Source: Martelella mediterranea (GTDB taxonomy: Bacteria; Pseudomonadota; Alphaproteobacteria; Rhizobiales; Rhizobiaceae). From it: DNA of 45,247 bases. Both the position numbers and the translations under genes were made by a program. Shown one piece after another: positions 7,340 to 44,723 of the stretch. The stretch's first letter is position 1. The number at the start of each line of letters is the position of its first letter. The DNA lies in the NCBI RefSeq assembly GCF_021021415.1, contig NZ_JAINWJ010000054.1:1-45247 (forward strand), written 5' to 3'. The notes beneath the pieces are model-generated. The model saw only the letters and a list, made by a program, of their open reading frames with translations. It did not search any database and was not told the origin of the DNA.

Positions 7340-7448
7340 TATATTCTCCTCCTTGATTGAACTGTTTCGATTCCTGCAACTGCGTATTTTCCGGATCGCC
7401 TGGCGACCCGCCACGGGGCCGGCTGTTGGTCCTATGGCAATTTCAAAA

Positions 7449-29433: not shown

Positions 29434-30122
29434 TCAGGCGATCGAATAGCCGCCGTCGATCGGCAGGACCGCGCCGTGGACATAGGACGCCTCGTCTGAC
29501 ACCAGGAAATGGATCACATTCGCGATCTCCATCGGTTCCGCCCAGCGACCGAGCGGGATCCGTGCCGTGATCCTGGGCTCGCGCTCCGGGTCGTTCTTCG
29601 CGCCTGTGCCCATGCGAGTGTCACCCAGCCTGGTGCGACGGCGTTGACGCGTACGCCGTTCCTGCCCCAGGCGACAGCCAGAGACCGGGTGAGGGAGACG
29701 ATCGCGCCCTTGGAAGACGCATAGGCCGGCGAACCTGCAGAGCCGAAGAAGCTCCACATTGACGCGATGTTGACCACCGATCCGCCTGCCGCCTCGAGCG
29801 GACCCTTGGCAAGATTCGCAGCCGCAAGGCTTGCCGTCACATTGATTTCCATAACCTGGCGGAAAACCTCTGGCTCCCATTCGGCGGACTGGCGGATGAT
29901 GCCGGCGCAATTGACAAGCGCGTCGATCCGGTCGGCCCGGTCCATCAATGCCGCAAGATCGGCTTGTGAGGTCACGTCCGTGCGGATGAACTCGATCCCT
30001 TCGGTCATATCGTCGTCAGCATCCAGGCCGCCGGCGATCACACGATAGCCTTCCGCCATCAGGCGCGTGCCCGTTGCAAGACCGATGCCGGTCCCGCCTC
30101 CCGTGATAACTGCTGTTTTCAT
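29434..30122 (-). pseudogene. Short-chain dehydrogenase, single frameshift
   Basis: The start at 30122 (MKTAVITGGGTGIGLATG) gives an SDR with TGGGTGIG cofactor loop, NCAGI, and the YASSK catalytic motif (about residue 136). After NAVAPGWV (near 29620) the reading frame is lost by one base. The expected continuation DTRMGTGAKNDPEREPR, then IPLGRWAEPMEIANVIHFLV and GAVLPIDGGYSIA, is in the other minus-strand frame to a stop at 29434. One missing base in GTGACACTCGCATGG would explain it. It is a recent pseudogene or a sequencing error; all other SDR motifs are intact. IS21 remnants lie just upstream. Confidence 0.85.
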
Positions 30123-30161
30123 CGTCGGCTCCTTCAGTTTCCCCGATGACAGGAGGCCCAT

Positions 30162-31358
30162 CTACGCCTTCGCCGATGTCGTCTCGACGGTTGTGCTCGG
30201 CAGGTAATGCACGGGTTCGAAGATGACATCCTCCCGATCAAAGCTTCGGGGATGGCGAGCGATGACCTCGCCGCGGCAACCGATCACCACCTTGTCGACA
30301 TAGCCTCGGACCCAAACGTCCTGGTGGCCATAGGCGACGGGCACGGAATAGTCACCGAATCGCCGCGCGCACGAGACGATCCGGCACTTTGAATGAGCGC
30401 ATCGTTCCGATAGCGAACGAGAGACTGGACCGTGACCCTGGCGCTGGCCTGATCGCAGGCGTCAAAGGGCGACACCGGCAAGGACTGCATGGCAGCCAGA
30501 TCGCGCTGCAGCCGTTCACCGATCGTCTCGCTCTCACCACGCAACCTGTCGCGCTGGCGCTTCCGGCACTGTTCTTCCAGAAAGGCGTTGAACGCGTCCC
30601 AGGTCGCAAACTGCGGGATGGGACCATGTAGTTACCCCGGGCATAGCCCACGATGCCCTCGACATTGCCCTTGTCATTGCCCTTTCCGGGGCGGCCATAG
30701 CGATCCCGGATCAGGTAGTGGGCCCACTGAACAGCGTCGCCCGCTTGCGCGTGCCATCAGGCCGGATCCTCGCCACAAGGCAGCGGTCGTTGTCGTAGAC
30801 GATCGACTGCGGCACGGCCCCGAAGAAGGCGAACGCATGGACGTGGCCATCGACCCAGACCTCGGCCACCGCAGCATGATAAGCCCGCACGTAGCAGCCG
30901 TCGCTATGCGGAAGATCGAGCACGAAGAACCGGGCCTTCTGCTCGACACCGCCGATCACGACCATTGCCTCACCGAAATCAGCCTGCGCATGGCCGGGCG
31001 GATGAGAAAGCGGCACGAACACTTCCTGACAGCGCTGTTCCCGTTCGCGGATATAGTCCTTGATAATCGTATAGCCGCCGGTGAACCCGCATTCGTCGCG
31101 AAGCCGGTCAAACACACGCTTGGCCGTATGGCGCTGCTTGCGAGGTACTTGTCTGTCTTCATCCAACCAATGGTCGATCGTCGAAACAAACGCGTCCAGC
31201 TTCGGTCGCCGGACTGGTGATTGTCGCTGATAGCCAGGAGGCGTCGAATACGACAGCATCTTGGCTACGCTGTCGCGGGATATGTTGAAGTGTTTGGCTG
31301 CCTGACGTCGGCTCATCCCTTCCGAGACCGCCAGACGAACCTTCAGATAAAGTTCCAC
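30162..31358 (-). mobile_element. istA: Degenerate IS21-family transposase gene (istA)
   Basis: From GTG 31358 a frame of 215 residues reads VELYLKVRLAVSEGMSRRQA, with helix-turn-helix KHFNISRDSVAKML and DDE-domain pieces HAQADFGEAMVVIG and SIVYDNDRCL. The frame then breaks at about 30715. Later parts continue in other frames: GNDKGNVEGIVGYARGNYMV, then FNAFLEEQCRKRQRDR, then SVPVAYGHQDVWVRGYVDKV and GEVIARHPRSFDREDV. At least three frameshifts are therefore present. The C-terminus and the helper gene istB are missing, cut near the SDR pseudogene. The element is inactive. Confidence 0.85.
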
Positions 31359-31960: not shown

Positions 31961-31982
31961 AAAATGCAAAAATTGCGTAATT
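31961..31982. promoter_or_regulatory. Candidate operator before the LacI gene
   Basis: AAAATGCAAAAATTGCGTAA contains two TGC units with first bases 9 apart (31965 and 31974). It resembles the TATGCAAAAAATGCAAATA site at 33187-33205, which has the same 9-base spacing, upstream of the transporter operon. A LacI-family regulator lies between them, so this may be an autoregulatory operator. Confidence 0.5.
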
Positions 31983-32013
31983 GATAATCAGACAATGACA
32001 ACAGTGAGCAAAG

Positions 32014-33024
32014 ATGGCCTCGACCACCCGCAGACCCAACCAGACCGACATCGCCGCCAGGCTCGGCGTTTCCGTCAGCACGGTCTCGCGTGCGCTGGCG
32101 AATGAGGAGGGCATATCCGAAGCGGTTCGGCGGGATGTACAGCGCATGGCGCGGACGATGGGGTACCGATCCAAGCATATGCCGGGCCTGCGGGCGATGG
32201 ATCGCCGCGTGGTCGCGCTCGTTCCCTTTGCCAATGCCACCGGAGGGCTTTCGAGCTTCTATGTCAGCATTCTTGATGCCATGCGAAGCGAGGCGCGGGC
32301 CTGCGGGCTTGATCTCGACGTTCGTGTAATCAGCGAGCGAACGGTCAATCTGGACCTCATAGACCGTCACGTAAAGGAGGCCGGCGCCGGCGCGGTATTG
32401 CTGGCGGGGATCGATGCGACCGATGAACTGGCCGTGTGGTGCCGGGAGCAGGATGTCCACGCCGTGCTCGTCAACGGCAGCGATCCGCTCATGCGCATCA
32501 GTTCGGTGGCGCCTGCAAATTTCTACGGGGCATATATGGCCACAAAGCACCTGCTTTCGTCCGGCCACAGAAAGATCCTGCATTATACCTATGGCGACCG
32601 GCCGACCATTCTCGAGCGGCGGCGCGGTTTTTTAACGGCTATGGCGGATGTGCCGGGCAGCGAGGCCGTGCTGGTTTGCGGCGAGGATCGTACACATCTT
32701 GAACTGCTGAGCGATATCGCCGGGCGGAAGCATGATGCCACGGCGCTGTTTTGCTGGAATGACATTGCGGCGGTGGAAATCATGGAGGGGATAAAGGGCG
32801 GTCTTGCCTCGGCCGGTCAGGGTTTCTCGATCATCGGTTTCGATGATCTGCCGCTTGCGGCCATGACCTCACCGCGCCTTACCACGATCCGTGTCGATCG
32901 CGAGGCGATCGGGCGCGGCGCAATCCGGCTGCTCTCGCATCAGCTCGAGGGCGAGACGGCGATCCAGCAGATGGAAATCGGCGTCTCTCTGGTCGTGGGC
33001 GGCACGGTTCACGTGATCGCCTGA
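32014..33024 (+). CDS. LacI-family transcriptional regulator
   Basis: A 336-residue LacI/GalR repressor. The N-terminal helix-turn-helix and hinge read NQTDIAARLGVSVSTVSRAL, then DVQRMARTMGYRSKHMPGLR. The sugar-binding-like effector domain shows ALFCWNDIAAVEIMEGIKGG and FSIIGFDDLPLAAMTSPRLT, both typical. It likely represses the downstream ABC transporter and catabolic genes until a sugar or derivative binds. Similar AT-rich TGC-containing sites lie before its own gene and at 33184-33208. Its location right upstream of a sugar-type operon supports this role. Confidence 0.93.
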   Translation: MASTTRRPNQTDIAARLGVSVSTVSRALANEEGISEAVRRDVQRMARTMGYRSKHMPGLRAMDRRVVALVPFANATGGLSSFYVSILDAMRSEARACGLDLDVRVISERTVNLDLIDRHVKEAGAGAVLLAGIDATDELAVWCREQDVHAVLVNGSDPLMRISSVAPANFYGAYMATKHLLSSGHRKILHYTYGDRPTILERRRGFLTAMADVPGSEAVLVCGEDRTHLELLSDIAGRKHDATALFCWNDIAAVEIMEGIKGGLASAGQGFSIIGFDDLPLAAMTSPRLTTIRVDREAIGRGAIRLLSHQLEGETAIQQMEIGVSLVVGGTVHVIA

Positions 33025-33183
33025 TACCGGCTTTATCGCGGGGAGCGGACGCCGGAAAATTTCCGCAACAGGTCGTCATGGCGGCAAGCGAGCGCCGTGC
33101 GCATCTTCGCCATTTGCGGCTTCATCCTGAAAATACCCAGAATAACAACAACTTGCAGAATGTGGTCGCGAACCGTTGTCGCG

Positions 33184-33240
33184 ATTTATGCAAAAAATGC
33201 AAATAAATGAATTGGTGTTGATATTTTGCGTTTTTGCGAA
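33184..33240. promoter_or_regulatory. Operator/promoter region of the transport operon
   Basis: ATTTATGCAAAAAATGCAAA (33184-33203) contains TGCA-AAAAA-TGCA, an inverted repeat flanked by AT-rich arms, with the same spacing as the site before the LacI gene. A second element, TTTTGCGTTTTTGCGAA, follows at 33224-33240. The sites lie 60-120 bases before the first transporter gene, a suitable position for repression by the LacI protein. The full gap is 33025-33301. Confidence 0.5.
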
Positions 33241-33301
33241 TACGGTTTCTCCGTTCCAGAAGAGACGGGGTCCGGGGAGGGATCCCGAGGGAGAAAAGAA
33301 C

Positions 33302-35221
33302 ATGGCTTATGCAATTCGTGTGCGGCGGTCGGTGAGGCACTCCGTGCTCGCGACATCCGCTGTAATGATGCTTTCAGGCGCAGCACTCGCCGCGCAGCAG
33401 GCGCCGATGCTCGATCCGCTGGTCGAAGACGGCACGCTGCCGCCGGTGGACGAGCGCCTGCCCGAAAATCCGCTGGTGGTGGAACCGGTCGATAGCATCG
33501 GCAAATACGGCGGCACCTGGCGTTCCGGCCTGCGCGGGCGCGGCGACAACGCCTGGATTTCGCGCACGCTGAATTATGACGGGCTGGTGCGCTATAATCG
33601 CGAATGGGATGAGATCATTCCCAATCTTGCCGAGAGCTGGGAGGTCAGCGAGGACGCGCGGCAATATACGTTTCACCTGCGCGAGGGTCTGAAGTGGTCT
33701 GACGGCACGCCGTTCACCAGTGCCGATATCGCCTTCGCGAGCGACCTCATCCAGGACCCCGACTATCCCGTCGGTGGTCTGTTCCTGACCGATCCCGGCA
33801 ACCCGGTCACGCTTGAGGTCGTTGACGACACGACCTTCACCTACACCTTCGAAGAGCCGAACGGGCTGCTGCTCGACGAGCTGGCCGGGGTCAATGGAAT
33901 CACCCTGGTCTCGCTGCAGAAGGCCTATTGCGGGCAGTTTTACCCGGCGGAGAACGAAAACGCCGACCAACTGGCCAAGGACGAAGGCTATGAAAACTGG
34001 GCCTTCATGATGGAGGACAAATGCGCCTTCGGCCAGGAAACCCAGCGGTGGAGCAATCCCGACCTGCCGTTCATGAATGCCTGGGTGATTGACGAGCCGT
34101 GGACGGCGAATGCCAGCCGCGTGGTGTTCGAACGCAACCCCTATTACTGGAAGACCGATCCTGACGGCAATCAGCTTCCTTACATAGATCGGCTCGAAAT
34201 GCGGGTCAGCGAAAGTGCGGAAGAACTGACGCTGATGGCGCTCAACGGCGAAATGGATTTCACCGACCGTCATATCACCACGGTGGCAAACCGGCCGCTG
34301 TTCTATGACGGCCAGGAACAGGGCGATTACCGGCTCGGCGCCAATGTGCCGTCGCAGTCCTCGACCCTGGTGCTCCAGCTCAACCTCAACCATTCCGACC
34401 CGGTCAAGGCGGAACTCTATAACAGCAAGGATTTCCGGATCGGGCTGTCGGAGGCGATCAACCGCCAGGAAATTATCGACACCGTGTTCACCGGCCAGGG
34501 CGAACCCTATCAGGTGGCGCCGCGTCCCGAATCCGAGTTCTATGACGAGGAGATGGCCAAGCAGTATACCGCGTATGATCCCGAGGACGCGATCGCGCAC
34601 CTCGAGAAAGCCGGACTGACCGAGACGAATGGCCAGGGCATCCGGCTGATGAGCGACGGCAAGCCGGCGGTCATCACCGTCGATGTGATCTCCGCCTTCC
34701 GCCCGGAATGGATCGACATGCTGGAGCTGATGTCGCTGCAGTTGCGCGAGGTCGGCATCGATCTCGAGATCAACAATATCGACCGCACGCTGTTCTACGA
34801 CAAGCGTCCGAGCGGCGATTTCGACGCCCAGGTCTGGCAGGGCGATGGCGGCCTCGATGTCATTCAGGAGCCGCGCTACTATTTCCCGGCCAATGCCGAG
34901 TCCGCCTGGGCCTTCCAGTGGCAGTCATGGTTCAACGGAACCGACCCGGAAATCGCCTCCGAACCGGTGGACTGGGCCAGGGAGCAGATGGAACTCTATA
35001 GCCAGCTCAAGGCCTCACCCGACCCTGAAGAGCGTAAAGCCCTGATGCGGCAGATCCTTGACATCGCCAAGGAGAACTTTCCGGTCATCGGTGTCAGCCT
35101 GGCCCCGGACGGCTACTACATCGCCAAGAACAATTTGCGCAATGTCTACGAGCCGATGAAGCATGCCTGGCTGTTTCCGACGCCGGCGCCCTACGACCCG
35201 CAGCAGTGGTACTTCGACTAG
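33302..35221 (+). CDS. ABC transporter substrate-binding protein, family 5 (DppA/OppA type)
   Basis: A 639-residue periplasmic protein. The start at 33302 (MAYAIRVRRSVRHSVL) follows GAGGGAG and gives a signal peptide cleaved near ALAAQQ; an earlier in-frame start at 33176 lies in the operator region. The family-5 motif is ESWEVSEDARQYTFHLREGL, followed by KWSDGTPFTSADIAFA. It is longer than most dipeptide-binding proteins (about 500-550 residues) and of the kind often used for oligosaccharides. It is the first gene of the transporter set (SBP, two permeases, two ATPases). Confidence 0.93.
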   Translation: MAYAIRVRRSVRHSVLATSAVMMLSGAALAAQQAPMLDPLVEDGTLPPVDERLPENPLVVEPVDSIGKYGGTWRSGLRGRGDNAWISRTLNYDGLVRYNREWDEIIPNLAESWEVSEDARQYTFHLREGLKWSDGTPFTSADIAFASDLIQDPDYPVGGLFLTDPGNPVTLEVVDDTTFTYTFEEPNGLLLDELAGVNGITLVSLQKAYCGQFYPAENENADQLAKDEGYENWAFMMEDKCAFGQETQRWSNPDLPFMNAWVIDEPWTANASRVVFERNPYYWKTDPDGNQLPYIDRLEMRVSESAEELTLMALNGEMDFTDRHITTVANRPLFYDGQEQGDYRLGANVPSQSSTLVLQLNLNHSDPVKAELYNSKDFRIGLSEAINRQEIIDTVFTGQGEPYQVAPRPESEFYDEEMAKQYTAYDPEDAIAHLEKAGLTETNGQGIRLMSDGKPAVITVDVISAFRPEWIDMLELMSLQLREVGIDLEINNIDRTLFYDKRPSGDFDAQVWQGDGGLDVIQEPRYYFPANAESAWAFQWQSWFNGTDPEIASEPVDWAREQMELYSQLKASPDPEERKALMRQILDIAKENFPVIGVSLAPDGYYIAKNNLRNVYEPMKHAWLFPTPAPYDPQQWYFD

Positions 35222-35310
35222 CATCCGAACGCCTCCTCCCGGGTGTCTCTTCCTCCGCGGCCCGCGTGCCGCGGAGGAACCGCCCGGAACCTGCAGAAAG
35301 GGCACGTTTC

Positions 35311-36300
35311 ATGCTCGGTTTCATTGTTCGGCGGCTGATTGCGATGGTGTTGACGATCTGGGCGGTTTCGTTCGTTTCGTTCGCGATCATCCAGCTTCCG
35401 CCAGGCGACTATCTGACAAGCTACATGGCGGAGCTAAGTGCCGCCGGCGACCGGATCGATCCGGCGACCATCGAGGCGCTGCGCCGGCAATATGGTCTCG
35501 GCGATCCCTTCATTGTCCAGTATTTCAAATGGATCGGCGGCGTGCTGCACGGCGATTTCGGCAACAGCTTCGAATGGAGCGCGCCGGTCACCGACCTGAT
35601 CTGGGGACGGCTCGGCAATTCCGTACTCGTCGAGGGTCTGGCCGTGCTGGTCATGTGGCTCGTGGCGTTGCCGATCGGCATTTATGCGGCGGTGCGCAAA
35701 TATTCGCTCGGCGATTATCTCGCCACCATCGGCGGCTTTGTCGGGCTTGCCATTCCCAACTTCCTGTTCGCGCTGGTGCTGATGTATCTCTGGTACATCT
35801 ATTTCGGCGAAACGCTCGGCGGCCTCTATTCGCCCGATCTTCAGGGTACGCCGTGGGACCTTGAACGCATTCTCGATTTCCTGGCGCATGCCTGGGCGCC
35901 GGTCCTGGTTCTTTCAACCGCTGGAACCGCGCAGTTGATCCGCGTGATGCGGGCCAACCTGCTCGACGAACTGACCAAACCCTATGTCACGACCGCCCGG
36001 TCCAAAGGATTGCCGGAATGGCGGGCGATCCTGAAATATCCGGTGCGCGTGGCGCTCAACCCGCTGGTCTCGACCATCGGCTGGCTGCTGCCGACCCTGG
36101 TGTCGAGTTCGGTCGTGGTTTCGGTGGTGATGAACCTGCCGACGGCCGGTCCGCTGCTTCTGCGTTCGCTCACCACCCAGGACATGTATCTCGCCGGCGC
36201 CATCATCATGCTTCTCGGCGTGCTCACCGTCATCGGCACGCTGATTTCCGATCTGATCCTGGCGTGGATCGATCCCCGCATCCGCTATGGAGGACGCTGA
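35311..36300 (+). CDS. ABC transporter permease, DppB type
   Basis: A 329-residue inner-membrane permease with about six hydrophobic segments. MLGFIVRRLIAMVLTIWAVS is a typical N-terminus. The EAA loop reads RVMRANLLDELTKPYVTTAR, continuing SKGLPEWRAILKY, and contacts the ATPase subunits. The start at 35311 (after AGAAAGGG) is preferred over an open frame running into the preceding gene. It forms a heterodimer with the next gene. Confidence 0.93.
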   Translation: MLGFIVRRLIAMVLTIWAVSFVSFAIIQLPPGDYLTSYMAELSAAGDRIDPATIEALRRQYGLGDPFIVQYFKWIGGVLHGDFGNSFEWSAPVTDLIWGRLGNSVLVEGLAVLVMWLVALPIGIYAAVRKYSLGDYLATIGGFVGLAIPNFLFALVLMYLWYIYFGETLGGLYSPDLQGTPWDLERILDFLAHAWAPVLVLSTAGTAQLIRVMRANLLDELTKPYVTTARSKGLPEWRAILKYPVRVALNPLVSTIGWLLPTLVSSSVVVSVVMNLPTAGPLLLRSLTTQDMYLAGAIIMLLGVLTVIGTLISDLILAWIDPRIRYGGR

Positions 36301-36301
36301 C

Positions 36302-37453
36302 ATGACCATCACCACGGACATGTCCGAACCGGCGGCGGTTGGAAAAACGGCGAAAGCCACCCTGACGGGGCGGGAAACGCAGTTGAAAATGACCTGGCGC
36401 CGCTTCAAGCAGCACCAGCTCGCCTTCGTCTCGCTGTGGATCGTGATCGCGTTCTACCTGGTTGCGATCTTCGCCGAGTTCGTCGCGCCGACCTCGCCGG
36501 GCGCCTACAATCCGCGCTACACCTATGCGCCCCCGCAGGGTATCCACTTCATCGCCCGCGATGCGGACGGCGGCTTTCAGTTCGGACCCTATGTGAACGG
36601 CTACAAGACCGAGATCGATCCCGAGGCCCTGCGCCGGGTGTTCACGATCGACCCTGAGGTCCGTCATCCGGTCGGCTTCTTTGTGCCGTCGGAGCCCTAT
36701 AAGCTGATGGGTTTCATCCCGATGAACCGCAAGCTCTTTGGCACGCTGGAACCGCGCGCGCCCTTCTACGTGATCGGCGCCGACAGGCTCGGGCGCGACC
36801 AGCTCAGCCGGCTGGTCTATGGCACGCGGGTTTCGCTGTCGATCGGCCTGGTCGGCGTGATCCTCAGCCTGTTCTTCGGCGTAATCATCGGCGGCTTTTC
36901 GGGCTATTACGGCGGCCTTTTCGACGGCATCGTGCAGCGGACGATCGAGTTCATCCGCTCGCTTCCGACGATCCCGCTATGGCTCGGGCTTGCCGCCGCC
37001 TTCCCGCGCGACTGGGGGCCGCTGCAGACCTATTTCGCGATCACCGTCATCCTGTCGATGCTGGGCTGGACGGAACTTGCCCGCGTGGTGCGCGGCCGGT
37101 TCCTGGCGCTGCGCACCGAGGATTTCGTCACCGCGGCGCAGCTTGACGGGGCATCGGACTACCGGGTGATCGTCAAGCACATGGTGCCGTCGTTTACCAG
37201 CCACATCATCGCGGCAACCACGCTTGCCATTCCGGGGATGATCCTCGCGGAGACGGCGCTCTCCTTCCTCGGCCTCGGCCTGCAGGCGCCGATCGTCAGT
37301 TGGGGCACGCTGCTGCAGGACGCCCAGAACATCCGCACACTCGCAGGCGCGCCGTGGCTTTTGTCGCCGGGTGTCGTCGTTGTCGTCGCGATCCTTGCCA
37401 TGAACTTTCTAGGAGACGGCCTTCGTGATGCCGCAGACCCCTATGGACGATAA
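36302..37453 (+). CDS. ABC transporter permease, DppC type, with large periplasmic insertion
   Basis: A 383-residue permease, start at 36302 preceded by GGAGGA. After the first membrane segment (about residues 40-62) about 90 residues are inserted before the usual HPLGTDxxGRD-like motif, which here reads VIGADRLGRDQLSRLVYG (about 156-173). Common DppC/OppC proteins lack such a large loop. The EAA loop is ALRTEDFVTAAQLDGASDYR. The insertion presumably faces the periplasm and may contact the long substrate-binding protein. It overlaps the next gene by 26 bases. Confidence 0.92.
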   Translation: MTITTDMSEPAAVGKTAKATLTGRETQLKMTWRRFKQHQLAFVSLWIVIAFYLVAIFAEFVAPTSPGAYNPRYTYAPPQGIHFIARDADGGFQFGPYVNGYKTEIDPEALRRVFTIDPEVRHPVGFFVPSEPYKLMGFIPMNRKLFGTLEPRAPFYVIGADRLGRDQLSRLVYGTRVSLSIGLVGVILSLFFGVIIGGFSGYYGGLFDGIVQRTIEFIRSLPTIPLWLGLAAAFPRDWGPLQTYFAITVILSMLGWTELARVVRGRFLALRTEDFVTAAQLDGASDYRVIVKHMVPSFTSHIIAATTLAIPGMILAETALSFLGLGLQAPIVSWGTLLQDAQNIRTLAGAPWLLSPGVVVVVAILAMNFLGDGLRDAADPYGR

Positions 37454-38522
37454 AGCAGAACTGCTCAGGATGGAGAATGTCAGCATCGTGTTCTCCTCGC
37501 CCGATGAGGCGGATATCGAAGCCGTCCGCCAGGTCGATTTCACCCTCACGCGCGGCAAGACGCTGGCGCTCGTCGGCGAAAGCGGCTGCGGCAAGTCCGT
37601 CACCGCCCGCACCATCCTGCGGCTGCTCGACAGGAACGCCCGGATCGGAACCGGACGCATCCTGTTCCGGGCAGAGGGCAATGCGCCGGTCGATATCGTA
37701 TCGCTGAAACCCGACAGCCCGGCGATGCGGGCGATCCGGGGCAACCGGATCTCGATGATCTTTCAGGAGCCGATGAGCTCGCTGTCGCCGGTGCACACGA
37801 TCGGCGACCAGATCGACGAAATGATCATGATTCATGAGCGGATCGACCAGAAGGCGGCACGGGTCCGCACGGTCGATCTCCTCGACCAGGTCGGCATTCC
37901 GGGCGCGCGCCAGCGGGCGGATGCCTATCCGTTCCAGCTTTCCGGCGGCCTGCGCCAGCGCGCCATGATCGCCATGGCGCTTGCCTGCAAGCCCGACCTC
38001 TTGATCGCGGATGAGCCGACGACGGCGCTCGACGTCACGACCCAGGCGCAGATCCTCGATCTCTTGAGGGCATTGCAGGAAGAATACGGCATGGCGATGC
38101 TGTTCATCACCCATGATCTCGGCGTCGTTGCCGAGATCGCCGACGAGGTCGCGGTAATGTATCTCGGCGATGTCGTCGAGCAGGGCAATGTCTTCGACGT
38201 GTTCCGCGCGCCGCAGCATCCCTATACGCGGGCGCTGATGAACTCCATTCCGCGCATGGTCCGCCGTGCGGAACGCGAACGGCTGGCGCCGATCGAAGGC
38301 AATGTGCCGTCGCCGCGCAACCGGCCGAAAGGCTGCGCCTTCACCTCGCGCTGCCCCCATGCCTTCGCCCCTTGCGCCGGGGACTATCCCGAGCGCACGA
38401 CGACCGGCGAGGCGCATTGGGCGCGATGCCATCTGCTCACACATGATGACGCCCCCGCCGTGTCGGGTTTGAGACAGGGGACGATGGCCGGCGAGAGCAT
38501 TGCCCATGGAGGTCACGCATGA
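37428..38522 (+). CDS. ABC transporter ATP-binding protein, DppD type
   Basis: A 364-residue ATPase. Walker A is GESGCGKS (about 50-57), the signature is LSGGLRQR (Leu replaces the usual Gln), and Walker B is [12 protein letters not shown]. The C-terminal oligopeptide-transporter extension contains [15 protein letters not shown], whose cysteines can hold an iron-sulfur cluster in related DppD proteins. ATG 37428 follows AGGAGA. The gene overlaps both neighbours and powers import. Confidence 0.93.
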
Positions 38523-39556
38523 CCGCACTTCTCGAAGTCGAAAACCTTTCGAAGGTGTTTACCTTGAGGGCAGGACCTTTCGGAGACCCGATCACGCTTG
38601 CCGCGCTCTCCGACGTATCGATCACGGTTGGTCAGGGGGAGACGCTCGCCATTGTCGGCGAGAGCGGATGCGGCAAGACCACGCTCGGCCGCTGCATCGT
38701 GCGCGCCGTCGATCCCTCGGGTGGCCGCGTGACCTATCATCCGCAAGAGGGCAGCGCGGTCGAACTCTCCGGCCTTTCGAAGCGGCAGTTGAAACCATGG
38801 CGGCGCGATATCCGGATGATCTTCCAGGATCCGATGTCCTCGCTCAATCCGTATATGCGGGTGTTCGACCTCGTGGCCGAGCCGCTGCGCATCCACAAGG
38901 CCGCCCGCGGCGCGGAGCTGGAACACCGAGTGGTCTCGACGCTTGAAAAGGTCGGCCTTCCACGGGATGCGCTACAGCGCTTCCCGCATGCCTTTTCCGG
39001 CGGCCAGCGCCAGAGAATCGGCATTGCCCGCGCGCTCGTGCTCGAGCCGAAACTGGTGATCGCCGACGAGGCGGTCTCCGCGCTGGACGTCTCGATCCAG
39101 GCGCAGATCCTCAATCTTCTGGAGGACCTGAAGGCCGATTTTGGCCTGACTTACATCTTCATCAGCCATGATCTCGGCGTGGTGAACTACCTCGCGGACC
39201 GGGTGGTGGTGATGTATCTCGGCCATGTGGTCGAGAGCGCGCCGACCGAGGCCTTGTTCGAGCGGCCGCGCCATCCCTATACGGAAGTGCTGCTCGATGC
39301 GCTGCCGATCGCCGACCCGACCCGGCGTGGAAAACGGCACGACACCGTCAAGGGCGAGATCCCCTTCCTCGGCGACCGCCTGGAGGGCTGTCCGTTTCAC
39401 ACGCGCTGCAAATTCGCCGAAGACCGCTGCCGCAAGGACAAGCCGGCGCTGAGGCCGATCAATGGCGGCCCGAGCGAGGCCGCCTGTCACTTTGCCGAGA
39501 CAATTGAACTCAAGGGCGCCTTTTCGGACAGCCCTGCTACAGGAACCTATGCCTAG
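38519..39556 (+). CDS. ABC transporter ATP-binding protein, DppF type
   Basis: A 345-residue ATPase. Walker A GESGCGKTT, signature FSGGQRQR, and Walker B LVIADEAVSALD (Ala in place of the usual Pro in DEPVSALD) are visible. The C-terminal GCPFHTRCKFAEDRC is the oligopeptide-transporter extension. The start overlaps the DppD stop as ATGA. It completes the importer. The DUF2264 gene begins directly after its stop codon. Confidence 0.93.
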   Translation: MTALLEVENLSKVFTLRAGPFGDPITLAALSDVSITVGQGETLAIVGESGCGKTTLGRCIVRAVDPSGGRVTYHPQEGSAVELSGLSKRQLKPWRRDIRMIFQDPMSSLNPYMRVFDLVAEPLRIHKAARGAELEHRVVSTLEKVGLPRDALQRFPHAFSGGQRQRIGIARALVLEPKLVIADEAVSALDVSIQAQILNLLEDLKADFGLTYIFISHDLGVVNYLADRVVVMYLGHVVESAPTEALFERPRHPYTEVLLDALPIADPTRRGKRHDTVKGEIPFLGDRLEGCPFHTRCKFAEDRCRKDKPALRPINGGPSEAACHFAETIELKGAFSDSPATGTYA

Positions 39557-41404
39557 ATGACCTACGATCCCACAACCGCAAATCCGCTCTACGGCAATCC
39601 GCTCAAGACGAGAGGCGATGTCGAGCAGGCGCTGCACGCGCTTTTCAATCCGCTCCTGCCGTTTTTCTCCGAAGGCCGCGCCCGCGTCCGGCTGAGCGGA
39701 AACGCCGCCCATTTCGACCGCATCGCCGCCGATGTCGAAGGCTTCGCACGTCCGCTCTGGGGACTGACACCTTATGCGGCCGGCGGCGGTTCCTTCGATT
39801 ACTGGGATTATTTCCGCGATGGCATTGCCAACGGCATGGATCCCGACCACCCGGAATTCTGGGGCACGGTCGAGCGCACAGACCAACGCATGGTCGAAAT
39901 GGCCGCAATCGGCTTCACGCTGCGGATGGTGCCGGAGAAGGTGTGGGACCCGCTGCCGGGAAGGGCAAAGGACAATATCGCCACCTATCTGAAGCAGCTG
40001 CGCCGCTATGCCTATGCCAACAACAACTGGAAGTTTTTCCGCATTCTCGTCGATATGGGGCTTACGCGGGTCGGCGTCGATTTCGACCGGACACTGACGG
40101 AGCAATATCTGGAGGAGCTCGACGGTTTCTATCTGGGCGACGGGTGGTATCGCGATGGCAATGTCCGCCGCGTCGACCACTACATCCCCTTCGCCATGCA
40201 TTTCTACGGCTTGATCTACGCGAAGCTCGCCGAACCCGGAGATGTGCGGGCAGAGGCCTATCGCGAGCGGGCGGCGCTGTTTGCCAGGGACATCCGCCAC
40301 TGGTTCGATGACGATGGTGGCACGCTCGCCTTCGGGCGAAGCCTCACCTACCGCTTCGCCTGCGGCGGCTTTTGGGGCGCGCTTGCCTTTGCCGATGTCG
40401 AGGCGCTGCCCTGGGGCGAGATCAAGGGCCATTTCATGCGGCAACTGAGGTGGTGGTCGCGCTATCCGATTGCCGACCGCGACGGCGTGCTGTCGGTCGG
40501 TTACGGCTATCCCAACCTGTTCATGAGCGAGAGTTACAATTCGGCGGGCTCCCCCTACTGGGCGCTGAAGGCCTTCCTGCCACTGGCGCTGGGCGCGGAT
40601 CACCCGTTCTGGCAAGCGGAAGAGACCGAGGCCGGTTTCGATGGCGATCCGGTTCCGCTCCGGCACCCGGGCATGGTGATGCAGCATCAAAAGGGCAATG
40701 TCGTCGCGCTTTCCAGCGGCCAGCAGAACCACCAGATGCGACACGGCGCCGAGAAATACGCGAAGTTTGTCTATTCCTCGCGCTATGGCTTTTCGGTCGA
40801 GGCCGACGAGCGCGGCTATGAGCGCGGCGCCTTCGACGGCATGCTGGCGCTTTCCGACGATATGCGCCACTACCGCGTCCGCGAGGATAACGAAGTGGCG
40901 CAAATCGCGGGGAACACGCTGTTTTCGCGTTGGAAACCCTGGGACGACGTGACGGTCGAAACCTGGCTCGTCCCGGCCGGGAACTGGCATGTGCGGGTGC
41001 ATCGGATCGAAACGCCGCGCGCGCTGCATGCGACCGAGGGCGGCTTCGCGATCGGACGCGCCGATCTCGATGTCGACCAATGTCATGAGGAGAATGGCCT
41101 CGCGCGCGCGCGCTCGCACACCGACCTCAGCCAGATCCTCGATCTTTCGTCTGGCGGGAAACGGGAGGGTCGGGTGCAGAAGGCGTTGCCGAACACCAAT
41201 CTGGTCGTCTCCAGGACCCTTGTGCCCCAGCTCCTCGGCAAGATTCCGGCCGGCACGACCGTGCTGGCGACCGCTGTTTCGGCAACACTTGGCGATATCG
41301 ATCCGGGCGAGGCACCGCCACTGCCGGACATCGGTGAACTGGAGGCGCTGTTCAAGCGGGACGGTGTCACGGTCAGCGCCATCGATATTGCGGAGAGATA
41401 CTGA
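39557..41404 (+). CDS. DUF2264-family protein, likely cytoplasmic carbohydrate-active enzyme
   Basis: A 615-residue protein of the DUF2264 family. There is no signal peptide, so it should act in the cytosol on imported material. Landmarks: PLWGLTPYAAGGGSFDYWDY (about 58-77), LDGFYLGDGWYRDG near 192, FACGGFWGALAFADVEALPW near 270, and LFMSESYNSAGSPYWALKAF near 320. Aromatic and acidic residues are abundant. The N-terminal two-thirds looks like an alpha/alpha-barrel, and the C-terminal third like a beta domain. I recall that some relatives are placed with GH154-type glucuronidases, but this needs checking. It starts right after the ATPase gene stop and precedes a dehydrogenase by a TGATG overlap. 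It is probably a glycoside-cleaving enzyme. Confidence 0.85.
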   Translation: MTYDPTTANPLYGNPLKTRGDVEQALHALFNPLLPFFSEGRARVRLSGNAAHFDRIAADVEGFARPLWGLTPYAAGGGSFDYWDYFRDGIANGMDPDHPEFWGTVERTDQRMVEMAAIGFTLRMVPEKVWDPLPGRAKDNIATYLKQLRRYAYANNNWKFFRILVDMGLTRVGVDFDRTLTEQYLEELDGFYLGDGWYRDGNVRRVDHYIPFAMHFYGLIYAKLAEPGDVRAEAYRERAALFARDIRHWFDDDGGTLAFGRSLTYRFACGGFWGALAFADVEALPWGEIKGHFMRQLRWWSRYPIADRDGVLSVGYGYPNLFMSESYNSAGSPYWALKAFLPLALGADHPFWQAEETEAGFDGDPVPLRHPGMVMQHQKGNVVALSSGQQNHQMRHGAEKYAKFVYSSRYGFSVEADERGYERGAFDGMLALSDDMRHYRVREDNEVAQIAGNTLFSRWKPWDDVTVETWLVPAGNWHVRVHRIETPRALHATEGGFAIGRADLDVDQCHEENGLARARSHTDLSQILDLSSGGKREGRVQKALPNTNLVVSRTLVPQLLGKIPAGTTVLATAVSATLGDIDPGEAPPLPDIGELEALFKRDGVTVSAIDIAERY

Positions 41405-42411
41405 TGCGCCCACGTGTGAGTTTCGCCATGGCCGCAGAGAAGACCCAGCATGTCTTCGATGAACGGCTGTACGACCGGCTCGGCAGGCACTGCGAGATCC
41501 TCTCCGTAACCCCGATGGAGGATTTCACGACACAGCAGGCACGGGATCTGTTGGCTAAGACCGATATTCTGGTCACCGGATGGGGTTCCCCCTTTGTCGG
41601 GGAGGATGTTTTGCGGCTTGCGCCGCGATTGCGCCTGATCGCTCACGCGGCCGGAACGGTGAAGTATACCATCGGCGAGGCGGTCTATGCCGCCGGCATC
41701 GCCGTTACCAACGCCGCGGCGGCGAACGCCGTGCCTGTGGCCGAATACACGTTGGCGGCGATCATCTTCGCCAACAAGAAGGTATTCGATCTGCGCGATG
41801 CCTACCGCCGGGACCGCGACGGGTCGTCGTCATGGCCGCTGATGAGCGGGCCGATCGGCAATTACCGGCGCACTGTCGGACTGATCGGCGCCTCGCGGAT
41901 CGGCCGGCGCGTGGCGGAACTGCTCGAAATCCTGGACGTCGAAATCCTGCTCCATGACCCCTACGTGACCGCGGACGATCCGATCGCCAAACGGATCACG
42001 CTCGTCGATCTCGACAGTCTGCTGCGGGGATCGGACACGATTTCGCTGCATGCCCCCGCCTTGCCCGCGACGCGGCACATGATTGGCGCCGCCGAGTTTT
42101 CCAGGATGCGGGATGGCGCCACCTTCATCAATACGGCGCGCGGTATGCTGGTCGATCATGAGGCAATGATCCGCGAACTGGAAAGTGGTCGGATCAGTGC
42201 GATTCTCGATGTCACGGCGCCCGAAATGCTCGAGACCGGGTCGCCTCTCTATACTTTGCCCAATGTGTTTCTGACCCCGCATGTTGCAGGCGCCGGCGGG
42301 CTGGAGCGGCTGCGGCTGGGCGAGATGGCGGTGAGCGAGATCGAACGGTTCATTTCCGGTCACCCGCTGGAACACGCAATCCAACCCGAGCTGCTGGAGC
42401 GGTCGGCATGA
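41404..42411 (+). CDS. Hydroxyacid dehydrogenase family protein
   Basis: A 335-residue protein of the D-2-hydroxyacid dehydrogenase family. The Rossmann loop GLIGASRIGRRV (about 159) has Ser in place of the central Gly. The catalytic Arg (INTARGMLVD) and His (LTPHVAG) are present. The Glu region reads DVTAPEMLETGSPL, slightly shifted from the usual DVxxxEP, so the Glu assignment is uncertain. It may oxidise or reduce a sugar acid or another product of the DUF2264 step. TGATG and ATGA overlaps bind it to both neighbours. Confidence 0.88.
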   Translation: MRPRVSFAMAAEKTQHVFDERLYDRLGRHCEILSVTPMEDFTTQQARDLLAKTDILVTGWGSPFVGEDVLRLAPRLRLIAHAAGTVKYTIGEAVYAAGIAVTNAAAANAVPVAEYTLAAIIFANKKVFDLRDAYRRDRDGSSSWPLMSGPIGNYRRTVGLIGASRIGRRVAELLEILDVEILLHDPYVTADDPIAKRITLVDLDSLLRGSDTISLHAPALPATRHMIGAAEFSRMRDGATFINTARGMLVDHEAMIRELESGRISAILDVTAPEMLETGSPLYTLPNVFLTPHVAGAGGLERLRLGEMAVSEIERFISGHPLEHAIQPELLERSA

Positions 42412-44045
42412 ATTCAGCGCTTGAGGATGGCGTCGGCACGGCCGCCCGCGAGGCGCGGCTGCAGTTCCTGACGTGGGAACGGACGCAGGACGATATCGAT
42501 TCACCCACCCACCGGGCGCGCTGTGCTCGTCTGGCGGAAACTTCGGATGCCGAAATCGACGGCACGGCCTATATCGCGGAAAAAGCCGCGGTGTTCACCG
42601 ACAGGCTTGTCTTGGGCGCTCAGTCCTATATCGCCGGCTATGCCATCGTCCGGGGCGACGTTACCCTGGGTGCCGAGTGCACGGTCAATGCCTATGCCTG
42701 CCTTGCCGGCAAGGTGACCTGCGGCGATCATGTTCGCATCGCCTCGCATGCCCAGATCATGGGCTTCAACCATGGGTATGAAGATCCCGATGTCCCGATC
42801 GCGCGACAGCCGCATGACACCCAGGGCATTGTCATCGAGGACGACGTGTGGGTCGGCGCCAATGCGGTGGTGCTTGACGGCGTACGGATCGGACGCGGCG
42901 CCGTCATCGCCGCTGGCGCCACGGTCACCCGCGACGTCCCGCCCTTCACGATTGCCGGGGGCGTGCCGGCAAAGCCGATCCGCCGGCGCGGTGAGAAATC
43001 GAATACCGACATCGAAGCGGCCCTCCGATCCGTGGGCGCGAGCATCAGGACAGAATGGCGCACGATCCTCCAGAGGAACCTGCGCGACGGGGTCTATGTC
43101 TCACGCGAGGCCGACGGCCAGGAGCGGTCAAGCATCCGACACCTCTGCGATGCGATCGAAATCGCGGCGGGCCTCGATGAACGTCCGGAAGGGCTCGACA
43201 TTCCAGCCGCGATTAAGACGCTGAAGGCGATACAGGATCCCGAAACGGGACTTTTCCCCGACCCCAGCCGTCCGCCGCGGCCGGACCTTCCCTTGCGCGA
43301 GGACGGATTGGCGCTCTACAACACCCTCGCAGTTGGCTATGCGCTGGAAGTGCTCGGCAACCGCCCGGATCACAGGATTGCCGCCGTCGAGCTCGATGCT
43401 CCCGATCTCTGCGCCTGGCAGGAAAGCCTTCCCTGGCGGACCAATGCGTGGTCGGCCGGAGCCTGCGTTGATGCGATCGGGACCGCCCTTTATTTCAACG
43501 CGCGCTACTTCTCGACCGGCAGGGTGCGGGAAACGCTGTTCGGCTGGTTGTCGCTTCATGTCGACAGGAGCACCGGCCTGTGGGGCGCGCCGACGGCCTC
43601 GGAAGGCCTGCTGCTGCCGGTCAATGGTTTCTATCGCCTGACGAGAGGCACCTATGCGCAGTTCGGCCTGCCTGTGCCCCATCCCGAGGCCGCGATCAAT
43701 TCCGTGCTCGCCAACTATCGCAACCATGACGGTTTTTGCGGTTTGACCTATACCGCCTGCAATCTGCTCGATACCATCCACCCGCTGCTGATCTGCCTCG
43801 ACCTCACGGATCATCGCCGGGCCGAGGCCGAGGCCGTCGCCCGCGCCATCATCGCCCGCGCGCCATCGCGCTGGCGGAAGGGGGAAGGCTTCGCCTTTGC
43901 CGATGGACAGGAACCCGGCCTGCAAGGCACGGAAATGTGGCTCTCGGTCATCCATCTGGCGGCAAAGCTTTTGAAGCGCGACGATGTCTTCCACTATGTC
44001 CCGAAGGGCGTCCATCGCACGCAGGCTGTGGGCCTCGGACTATGA
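42408..44045 (+). CDS. Fusion: left-handed beta-helix acyltransferase plus alpha-helical (toroid-like) domain
   Basis: A 545-residue protein in two parts. Residues about 45-195 form a hexapeptide-repeat (LbetaH) acyltransferase: repeats such as VLGAQSYIAGYAIVRGDVTL and a candidate catalytic His in MGFNHGYEDPD, then IEDDVWVGANAVVLDGVRIG and GGVPAKPIRRR, as in sugar O-acetyltransferases. Residues about 215-530 are helical, with repeated Asp/Gly-rich loops (IQDPETGLFPDPSRPP, LHVDRSTGLWGAPTA, YRNHDGFCGLTYTACNLLD). This is reminiscent of alpha/alpha-toroid folds of prenyltransferase/terpene-cyclase-like or glycosidase type. I know of no named family with this fusion. It may acetylate or deacylate a sugar and process the same substrate in the second domain. 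Confidence 0.75.
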   Translation: MNSALEDGVGTAAREARLQFLTWERTQDDIDSPTHRARCARLAETSDAEIDGTAYIAEKAAVFTDRLVLGAQSYIAGYAIVRGDVTLGAECTVNAYACLAGKVTCGDHVRIASHAQIMGFNHGYEDPDVPIARQPHDTQGIVIEDDVWVGANAVVLDGVRIGRGAVIAAGATVTRDVPPFTIAGGVPAKPIRRRGEKSNTDIEAALRSVGASIRTEWRTILQRNLRDGVYVSREADGQERSSIRHLCDAIEIAAGLDERPEGLDIPAAIKTLKAIQDPETGLFPDPSRPPRPDLPLREDGLALYNTLAVGYALEVLGNRPDHRIAAVELDAPDLCAWQESLPWRTNAWSAGACVDAIGTALYFNARYFSTGRVRETLFGWLSLHVDRSTGLWGAPTASEGLLLPVNGFYRLTRGTYAQFGLPVPHPEAAINSVLANYRNHDGFCGLTYTACNLLDTIHPLLICLDLTDHRRAEAEAVARAIIARAPSRWRKGEGFAFADGQEPGLQGTEMWLSVIHLAAKLLKRDDVFHYVPKGVHRTQAVGLGL

Positions 44046-44069
44046 TCAGGAATTGAGGAGAAGATCGCT

Positions 44070-44723
44070 ATGACGAAGCGAAAGGCGCTTGTGGTTTACG
44101 GAGGAATGGAACTGCATACACCCAGGGAAGGCGCCGAGGTCGTCCGCCAGATCCTGGAGGAGCACGACTTAGCGGTCCATGTGACCGATGATTATGATGC
44201 GCTCGGCGCCGATGACGTCGGCTCCAATGCACTCGTGGTTCCGGTTATCACGGATGGCGTTCTCGAACCGGAAAAGATGGCCCGGTTGATCGCCGCGGTG
44301 CGGGCGGGCACGGGGCTGGCGGGTTACCACATGGGGCTTGCGACCAGCTTTCGGGCAAGCGTGCCCTTCCGCTATGCCGCGAGCTGCTACTGGGTTTCCC
44401 ATCCGGGGAACATCATAACCTATCAGGTCGACGTCACCCGGCCCGATCATCCGATCATGGAGGGGATCGAGCGCTTCGAACATACATCGGAACAATACTA
44501 CCTGAACTACGATCCGGCCGTGGAGGTGCTGGCGACCACCACGTTTTCCGGCGAATTCCACCCCTGGCGCAAGAACGTCGTCATGCCGGTGGTGTTCACC
44601 ACCACTCATGGCGAAGGCCGGGTGTTCTATTCCTCCCTCGGACACACAGCCGACGAGCTTGAAATCCCCAATGTGCGGCTGATCCTGACCCGCGGCCTGC
44701 TCTGGGCGGCCGGGGCGCTTTGA
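44070..44723 (+). CDS. ThuA-like domain protein
   Basis: A 217-residue protein of the ThuA (trehalose utilisation) / class I glutamine amidotransferase-like superfamily. GTGLAGYHMGLATSFRASVP (about 80-99), THPIMEGI-like DHPIMEGIERFEHTSEQYYL, and VFTTTHGEGRVFYSSLGHTA are characteristic. Family members take part in disaccharide or keto-sugar metabolism, but the reaction is not settled. It sits 24 bases after the fusion gene with GAGGAG upstream, completing the putative operon. Its last step role here is unknown. Confidence 0.88.
   Translation: MTKRKALVVYGGMELHTPREGAEVVRQILEEHDLAVHVTDDYDALGADDVGSNALVVPVITDGVLEPEKMARLIAAVRAGTGLAGYHMGLATSFRASVPFRYAASCYWVSHPGNIITYQVDVTRPDHPIMEGIERFEHTSEQYYLNYDPAVEVLATTTFSGEFHPWRKNVVMPVVFTTTHGEGRVFYSSLGHTADELEIPNVRLILTRGLLWAAGAL

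Follow-up and report, generated by a model that had tools for sequence, protein, structure and literature searches.

A candidate LacI-regulated uronide operon built around a GH154-related DUF2264 protein in Martelella mediterranea

Ten genes on the plus strand make up the locus analyzed here, within a 45,247-nucleotide stretch of Martelella mediterranea DNA (hereafter, the window). All ten are open, and their Pfam families agree with those assigned in the original prediction, so that the gene set can be taken as real. The features are as follows.

32014..33024, plus strand: LacI-family regulator (Pfam LacI and Peripla_BP_3)
33053..33065, unstranded: candidate operator palindrome CGGAAAATTTCCG in the gap between the LacI and solute-binding protein genes; weak, with 6-bp arms
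33302..35221, plus strand: periplasmic solute-binding protein, SBP_bac_5 family (PF00496, 1.3e-68)
35308..36300, plus strand: Dpp/OppB-type permease (PF00528, PF19300)
36302..37453, plus strand: Dpp/OppC-type permease (PF00528, PF12911); ATG at 36302 behind GGAGG, alternative longer start at 36287
37425..38522, plus strand: Dpp/OppD-type ATPase (PF00005, PF08352); alternative start at 37443
38519..39556, plus strand: Dpp/OppF-type ATPase (PF00005, PF08352)
39557..41404, plus strand: DUF2264 protein, predicted uronate beta-eliminase, cytosolic (PF10022, 1.4e-127; PF20938, 6.4e-48)
41404..42411, plus strand: D-2-hydroxyacid dehydrogenase (2HDH) with an NAD-type motif (PF02826, PF00389)
42408..44045, plus strand: hexapeptide acyltransferase (PF00132, 3.4e-16) with an unclassified helical part
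44070..44723, plus strand: ThuA-family protein (PF06283, 3e-38)

The solute-binding protein (SBP) probably starts at the ATG ahead of an apparent signal peptide, the TTG at 33176 in the list of open reading frames being too early. The direct abutment described earlier is present between the genes for the OppF-type ATPase and DUF2264 (TAG followed immediately by ATG at 39556/39557), but the ATGA or TGATG junctions number three (ATGA at 38519 and 42408, TGATG at 41402-41406) rather than the claimed four. The junction between the two permease genes reads TGACATG, and the OppC-type permease gene overlaps the OppD-type ATPase gene by 11 bases with one choice of start codon and by 29 with the other. 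A Pfam search of the ten proteins detects no kinase, isomerase or aldolase, as had been claimed, and no GH88 or GH105 domain.

The nine genes that follow the LacI gene recur in the same order and on the same strand in 16 loci besides the window, with protein identity of about 55-99%; with the window, this makes 17 loci, chosen for carrying the gene set, in Martelella, Devosia, Pelagibacterium and further relatives. The neighborhood is thus not unique to the window genome, and the recurrence of the gene order is more than chance. The helical part of the acyltransferase was found in 22 of 397 genomes, with the full set present in 14 of these and absent from 8 (including G049, a weak match counted without its flank). 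A LacI orthologue lies upstream of the operon in L002, L003, L033, L036, L063-L065, L069 and L070, and in the two close relatives compared, the palindrome CGGAAAATTTCCG is shared with L036 and missing in L002. By Pfam, the importer comprises an SBP5 protein, two BPD_transp_1 permeases and two oligo_HPY ATPases, the same makeup as that of Dpp/Opp-type ABC importers; against NCBIfam, none of its proteins reaches a cut-off among the matches listed.

The DUF2264 protein matches the GH154 structure 8oi4 (deposited as a GH154 beta-galactosidase) and the BcGDH structures 9o4u and 9nwf at 4.5e-27 to 1.9e-23 with phmmer and at up to 1e-33 with a profile. The likeness to GH154 that had been raised extends to the predicted fold: with a structure model of moderate quality (mean pLDDT 72.5; below 50 at residues 191-207, 260-262 and 306-333, stretches that contain R261 and Y327), the top nine Foldseek matches are chains of these three entries, with probability 1.00 and TMt of 0.62-0.68; PL35, PL17 and further uronate lyases rank next. 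BcGDH, a member of GH154, has been reported to be a beta-D-glucuronate dehydratase in which alanine mutants of ten residues (E74, R78, N176, N177, W178, F181, Y229, R285, Y289 and Y354) gave no detectable activity, with the caveat that the substrate was poor and small perturbations could mask the activity of mutants (PMC12269599). All ten residues are identical in the window protein, whose orthologue in Martelella mediterranea DSM 17316 is Mame_RS23415. Furthermore, Y229, R285, Y289 and Y354, which correspond to Y209, R261, Y265 and Y327 in the window, are identical in all 76 DUF2264 relatives, and Y209, R261 and Y265 are predicted to be the catalytic Tyr/Arg/Tyr. In contrast, Y175 of the BcGDH mobile loop is not conserved, with N155 in the window protein and D in most relatives, so that the substrate of DUF2264 may differ from that of BcGDH. 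The window operon shares with the BcGDH/BT_3677 system of Bacteroides a homologous catalytic domain, the ten active-site residues and the fold, and differs from it in the divergent Y175 position, the lack of GH88 in the operon and uptake through a Dpp-type ABC importer; the additional DUF2264_C domain of the window protein has a parallel in BT_3677, which is reportedly two-domain as well (PMC12269599). Judging from these comparisons, the assignment of DUF2264 as a homologue of GH154 uronate dehydratases that retains the active-site residues, and is predicted to catalyze an elimination step, is well supported.

Across 76 DUF2264 loci, GH88 is nearby in 17, 2HDH in 53, both in none and neither in 6, a mutual exclusivity for which the tree of DUF2264 requires at least three changes of state and a paired test with two usable pairs gives p = 1. 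L062 was left out of the 76 loci because it comes from the same genome as L033, L159, L160, L168 and L169 were left out of the tree, and the two genome collections may overlap beyond L062/L033. DUF2264 proteins 52-63% identical to that of the window lie beside GH88, a heparinase II/III-type gene and a sugar importer (L011, L016, L017, L026, L144, L145, L149, L151, L155 and L165). The adjacency to GH88 of some alphaproteobacterial relatives resembles the BcGDH/BT_3677 system, and in B. caccae, GDH and GH88 are likewise together (PMC12269599). The alphaproteobacterial loci with a lyase and GH88 (L011, L074 and others) are comparable in that they combine a uronide lyase and a sugar importer with either DUF2264 or the acyltransferase fusion; unlike these loci, the window operon has no lyase and no GH88 but does have 2HDH, ThuA and SBP5. 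A PL33-like lyase gene, which in L062 is a relative of BT4410 (1.4e-48), is found upstream of the SBP gene in 8 of the 17 window-type loci. Outside the operon, the window genome has a strong PF07470 match on contig C74 and a marginal one, at 27 bits, on C2, and no GH88/GH105 match exceeds the Pfam cut-off in 9 of the 14 operon genomes. KduI-family matches occur in all 14, two or three in each and always outside the operon; one of these in each genome may be IolB.

Taking into account the GH154 homology, the retained active-site residues, the GH88 and heparinase-type lyase neighbors of relatives, the PL33-like gene of some window-type loci, the separate occurrence of GH88 and 2HDH near DUF2264, and the KduI-family matches of the operon genomes, we consider it fairly probable that the locus is a LacI-regulated operon for the cytosolic catabolism of small hexuronate-containing oligosaccharides (uronides) that lacks the usual GH88 partner. 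The uptake and processing of a uronic acid-containing oligosaccharide, as originally proposed, is thereby retained, whereas its acylation is not. Under this model, the SBP5/Dpp-type ABC importer would carry the compound into the cytosol, as its protein families suggest, and in the loci that encode it, the PL33-like lyase would shorten the compound. DUF2264 would then act on the uronate at the non-reducing end through a Tyr/Arg/Tyr mechanism, abstracting the proton at C5 and eliminating the leaving group at C4, which as in BcGDH would be water, to yield a C4=C5-unsaturated uronyl residue. Once freed, this residue would be expected to open to 4-deoxy-5-keto-uronate, an alpha-keto acid, and 2HDH could reduce the alpha-keto group. 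More tentatively, the acyltransferase might cap or detoxify a sugar intermediate in the manner of LacA, and ThuA might act on a later keto-sugar intermediate. Counted against a uronide operon were the lack of GH88/GH105, the hydrolase that acts after BcGDH, as well as the location of the KduI genes elsewhere in the genome, the title of 8oi4, the contexts of the acyltransferase in Rhizobium and the occurrence of ThuA without a Gfo/Idh-type dehydrogenase.

Alternatively, DUF2264 could be a cytosolic exo-lyase that relies on the same C5-proton abstraction, with the neighboring sugar as the C4 leaving group, and trims uronate oligomers to 4-deoxy-5-keto-uronate, which 2HDH would then reduce. Because such an enzyme would release this product directly, GH88 would be unneeded, which would account for its absence. 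The best folds after GH154 are indeed PL35 and other uronate lyases, including Atu3025, an exotype alginate lyase from Agrobacterium, and these matches span both the helical and the beta parts, albeit with TMq of only about 0.43-0.55; moreover, the mechanism of BcGDH has been compared with that of the alginate lyase Alg17C (PMC12269599). However, the full set of ten BcGDH residues is retained, and no alignment column splits the GH88-associated from the 2HDH-associated DUF2264 proteins at 90%, so that DUF2264 bears no mark of changed chemistry. In addition, a separate lyase is already encoded in at least 8 of the 17 window-type operons. On balance, an exo-lyase appears rather unlikely.

It is improbable that the substrate is instead a non-uronide carboxylated conjugate (of the opine, peptidyl sugar or glycosyl-glycerate type) that would be imported by the Dpp system and undergo elimination beside the carboxylate by DUF2264, with 2HDH reducing a small 2-keto acid, such as hydroxypyruvate. 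Peptides and opines are frequent cargo of SBP5/Dpp transporters, the best PDB matches of 2HDH are phosphoglycerate dehydrogenase, glyoxylate reductase and a probable 2-ketogluconate reductase, and some rhizobial loci contain an extra xylose-isomerase-like TIM-barrel gene, all of which would be compatible with such a substrate. However, the lyase and GH88 genes beside relatives indicate uronate chemistry, and in the rhizobial DUF2264-2HDH loci L005 and L015 (Pfam-typed), a sugar-type SBP_bac_1/8 protein takes the place of SBP5. Finally, it is highly improbable that DUF2264 is a true glycoside hydrolase (a beta-glucuronidase or beta-galactosidase, the first annotation of GH154) in an ordinary glycoside uptake operon: the title of 8oi4 and the GH154 beta-glucuronidase and beta-galactosidase reports cited in PMC12269599 would favor this, but the same source describes hydrolase activity that varied between preparations and chondrosine from which no glucuronate was released, reports that BT_3677, the founding member, shows dehydratase activity as well, and sees no typical glycoside hydrolase active-site layout in the compared structures.

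Within the preferred reading, that of a uronide operon, the hydrolase might be replaced by a previously undescribed redox-linked cleavage, in which 2HDH, ThuA and the helical part of the acyltransferase (or the rhizobial TIM-barrel protein) would jointly release and reduce the unsaturated residue; we regard such a GH88-independent route as doubtful. In 2HDH, G162, G167 and D185 and R246, E274 and H293, which we take to be the NAD motif and the catalytic Arg/Glu/His, respectively, are invariant in 45 of 45 aligned rows, so the enzyme is not divergent in this sense, contrary to its initial description. The ThuA-family protein recalls the ThuA/ThuB trehalose pathway of Agrobacterium, where such a protein is also encoded in a sugar-import operon; unlike that pathway, the window operon has an importer of a different class and no ThuB-type (Gfo/Idh) dehydrogenase, the Pfam search of the ten proteins detecting no GFO_IDH_MocA domain. 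In the literature searched, nothing was found on the mechanism of ThuA.

The acyltransferase fusion consists of a hexapeptide part (residues ~50-200), in which the presumably catalytic H122 is invariant in 19 rows, and a helical part (~210-545). LacA (1kqa), the galactoside O-acetyltransferase of the lac operon, which is thought to cap or detoxify a sugar intermediate, matches the acyltransferase profile at 3.2e-18, and both are hexapeptide acyltransferases in LacI-controlled uptake operons, the large fused helical part being specific to the window protein in this comparison. An acylated substrate is not supported because an acyltransferase would add acyl groups rather than remove them, and in Rhizobium, relatives of this protein also have Rieske and hydroxyproline genes as neighbors. 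For the helical part, none of 18 members gives a Pfam match, even with E values up to 10; the structure model, built from four aligned sequences, is poor (mean pLDDT 53.1), such that this part is not classifiable from it, and Foldseek with this model yields nothing under E 0.001 (squalene-hopene cyclase at 0.08, GH105 4ce7 at 0.14-0.30). With hhalign, this part showed no link to rows of GH105, GH88, heparinase-type proteins or DUF2264, but the positive control, GH105 against GH88, failed too. The helical part was considered as a substitute for GH88/GH105, for which its size and fold class are fitting, but it co-occurs with GH88 in L074, L075 and L081, which argues against its serving purely as a replacement. 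It has distant relatives in 9 genomes from outside the order Hyphomicrobiales; in the three of these loci inspected (L141-L143), no gene matched the small library. DUF2264 is present in 19 of the 22 genomes with the acyltransferase part compared to 17 of the 375 others (Fisher p 9e-20, with relatedness ignored and the 397 genomes of each search taken as one set).

No described pathway with this exact gene set was found in the open-license literature, in agreement with the original prediction, although the family of the key enzyme has had a published activity since 2025. Searched by family name, DUF2264/PF10022 returned nothing on the family in the same literature. DUF2264, still uncharacterized according to its Pfam label, gains a testable chemical role in proteobacteria, and in Hyphomicrobiales one predicted elimination step appears with two alternative sets of neighbors, one being GH88 and the other 2HDH accompanied by ThuA or a TIM barrel. 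If the 2HDH module truly replaces the hydrolase, this would amount to a new means of consuming polysaccharides rich in glucuronic acid. The 2HDH/acyltransferase/ThuA module is not mentioned in the available part of an account of haloarchaeal glycosaminoglycan loci (PL8, GH88, GH154 and an ABC transporter), which, in contrast to the window, include GH88 and a secreted lyase; in common with the window, these loci combine GH154 with an ABC oligosaccharide importer (PMC13260240).

The operon follows a LacI gene in the window:

32014-33024, plus strand, LacI gene
then, ending at 44723, plus strand, nine genes: SBP_bac_5 solute-binding protein (SBP), two Dpp/Opp permeases, two oligo_HPY ATPases, DUF2264 protein, D-2-hydroxyacid dehydrogenase (2HDH), acyltransferase fusion, ThuA

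Judging from homology and gene context, this operon would be uronide-catabolic, organized around a GH154-type protein and missing the GH88 partner. The elimination chemistry of the GH154 family was published in 2025 (PMC12269599); searches of the open-licence literature for DUF2264, PF10022 and GH154, at the level of titles and opening abstract lines, revealed no paper on the operon or on a proteobacterial DUF2264 gene with 2HDH, acyltransferase and ThuA. Of the tight packing claimed by the original prediction, the single direct abutment was recovered, and the ATGA or TGATG junctions number three rather than four. The DUF2264 gene, present in one copy in this genome, encodes a protein matching PF10022 (1.4e-127) and PF20938 (6.4e-48), and the hexapeptide acyltransferase carries about 335 additional residues at its C-terminus. 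NCBIfam yielded no match to DUF2264 or the window ThuA at an E-value of 0.1, and among the matches listed for the transporter proteins and 2HDH, none reached a cut-off.

In a phmmer search of the PDB, DUF2264 matched 8oi4, a GH154 protein titled beta-galactosidase, and the beta-D-glucuronate dehydratase structures 9o4u/9nwf (4.5e-27 to 1.9e-23; with a profile, down to 1e-33). With the AlphaFold2 model (18-sequence input, mean pLDDT 72.5, pTM 0.79), the top nine Foldseek matches were chains of these same entries, followed by PL35-type lyases, dermatan sulfate epimerase, HepC, Atu3025, PL17, PL33, xanthan lyase and PL8. According to PMC12269599, the Bacteroides caccae dehydratase BcGDH converts the terminal glucuronate of chondrosine to a 4,5-unsaturated residue that is then a GH88 substrate, and BT_3677, the founding GH154 member, is likewise a dehydratase; activity was undetectable in ten alanine mutants of BcGDH, and the authors caution that chondrosine is a poor substrate. 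All ten residues are identical in the window protein (BcGDH-window: E74-E61, R78-R65, N176-N156, N177-N157, W178-W158, F181-F161, Y229-Y209, R285-R261, Y289-Y265, Y354-Y327). Because the model is of low confidence at R261 and Y327, these identities are based on sequence alignments. Y209, R261, Y265 and Y327 are identical in all 76 DUF2264 loci compared; the other six positions are all absent in L169, a partial sequence, and L145 and L153 likewise lack N156. The mobile-loop Y175 of BcGDH is not kept, being N155 in the window and D in most relatives. Taken together, homology, fold and active-site identity with the GH154 dehydratases make it likely that the window DUF2264 works like a uronate dehydratase.

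The complete set from SBP to ThuA, in identical order and strand, occurs at 17 loci: the window, M. mediterranea L002 and plasmid pMM593 (L036, annotated), Devosia sp. LC5 (L003), Pelagibacterium xiamenense (L033) and twelve further genomes of the order Hyphomicrobiales (L063-L073, L079). The helical part of the acyltransferase was matched in 22 of 397 genomes of the order, with the full set in 14 and not in the other 8. LacI lies upstream in 10 of the 17 loci; in six of the remaining seven, a lyase gene fills the stretch of upstream flank covered, and in L068, LacI was not seen in 1.65 kb of flank. This lyase-like gene (553-651 codons) precedes SBP in 8 of 17 loci (L003, L033/L062, L066, L067, L071, L072, L073, L079) and shows homology to heparinase II/III-type proteins from GH88 loci, with E-values of 1.4e-38 to 1.3e-57 for the best pairs. 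The L062 copy, which has no Pfam match at 1e-5, aligns with the PL33 hyaluronan lyase BT4410 (8r75, 8r6z) across 540 residues (1.4e-48); no signal peptide was seen on inspection by eye.

We surveyed genes within 9 kb of DUF2264 at 76 loci (the window, 34 from genome_contigs, two from plasmid records and 39 stretches from other genomes), naming partners by BLAST against a small library typed mainly by Pfam, which distant forms may escape. GH88 was found at 17 loci, 2HDH at 53, both at none and neither at six. Three or more changes of GH88/2HDH state are needed on the tree built from 72 DUF2264 sequences, so mutual exclusion is suggestive but not significant. The 2HDH loci comprise 17 of the window type, 33 of a rhizobial type that has a sugar SBP (in some cases together with a TIM barrel or Gfo/Idh protein, and in 10 with ThuA at a distance of 2.5-2.7 kb), a second Dpp type (L148, L150) and L161; L080 has the importer of L148 and L150, with no 2HDH seen within its stretch. 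A sugar-type SBP occurs in 13 of the 17 GH88 loci and a heparinase II/III-type gene in 10, and in two (L149, L155) KduI lies within 100 bases of DUF2264. Ten alphaproteobacterial loci from Rhizobium and Neorhizobium relatives (L011, L016, L017, L026, L144, L145, L149, L151, L155, L165) join DUF2264 with a heparinase-type gene, GH88 and a sugar SBP; they are apparent uronide-utilisation loci and share with B. caccae the dehydratase/GH88 pairing. In rhizobial DUF2264-2HDH loci, the palindrome TGCAAATTTGCA lies upstream of LacI (L038, 10942; L015, 8931), with the variant GCAAATTTGC in L005 (8928), a possible operator.

Elsewhere in the operon genomes (14, each rated at least 99% complete; the search also took in G100), the GH88/GH105 family PF07470 exceeds the Pfam cut-off in five (strongly in G000, G127, G276 and G381; 44 bits in G222) and not in nine, four of which have 19-23 bits and five no match. 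KduI-family matches occur in all 14, two or three apiece, of which one per genome may be IolB; UxaC occurs in 13. Therefore, the hydrolase is not a constant partner of the operon, and genes for the steps after 4-deoxy-5-keto-uronate may be generally present. The strong GH88/GH105 gene of the window's genome is on contig C74 (L082, 1462-2565), where its neighbours are KduI and a sugar ABC system; it also exceeds the NCBIfam cut-off for the Agrobacterium beta-galactosidase BglB, an activity annotation that may deserve re-examination.

Protein families and homology suggest a route in which the substrate would be imported by the ABC system and DUF2264 would catalyze elimination at a uronate. 4-Deoxy-5-keto-uronate is an alpha-keto acid because carbon 5 is alpha to the carboxylate; 2HDH, whose family interconverts 2-keto and 2-hydroxyacids, could reduce the alpha-keto acid arising from elimination. 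Its predicted catalytic residues R246, E274 and H293 and its NAD motif are invariant in 45 of 45 rows. ThuA might, going by its family name, have a keto-sugar role. By analogy with LacA (1kqa, profile match 3.2e-18), the acyltransferase might serve in capping. Its relatives adjoin Rieske, proline and hydroxyproline genes in the two plasmid records examined out of 136 with a match (115 of these from Rhizobium), and similarly in L076, which counts against a dedicated role in the operon, whereas its link to uronides is favored by the fusion's presence in lyase/GH88 loci (L074, L075, L081; no DUF2264 within those stretches) and by DUF2264 in 19 of the 22 genomes with the helical part compared to 36 of 397 overall.

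Fusion relatives in the Rhizobium loci L170 and L171 (both 6959-8611) and L076 (7002-8666) stand beside LysR and a Rieske dioxygenase with its reductase, in L170 and L171 also beside hydroxyproline genes, and no uronide link is visible in these three neighbourhoods. ORFs of 373-427 codons in nine genomes outside the order (L132-L140) are weakly similar to the helical part (6.4e-8 to 5.3e-4).

Just upstream of the window LacI gene, 29514-31358 looks like insertion-element debris: a minus-strand short-chain dehydrogenase ORF, its final part apparently out of frame, adjoins a transposase-like ORF (30711-31358; IS21/IstA-like by eye). The ten minus-strand genes scanned in 1-27250, with products including enoyl-CoA hydratase, MmgE/PrpD, LysR, TctA, two CoA-ligase-like ATP-grasp proteins, an amidohydrolase and DctP and OpuAC binding proteins, appear to serve organic-acid catabolism that has no relation to the operon.
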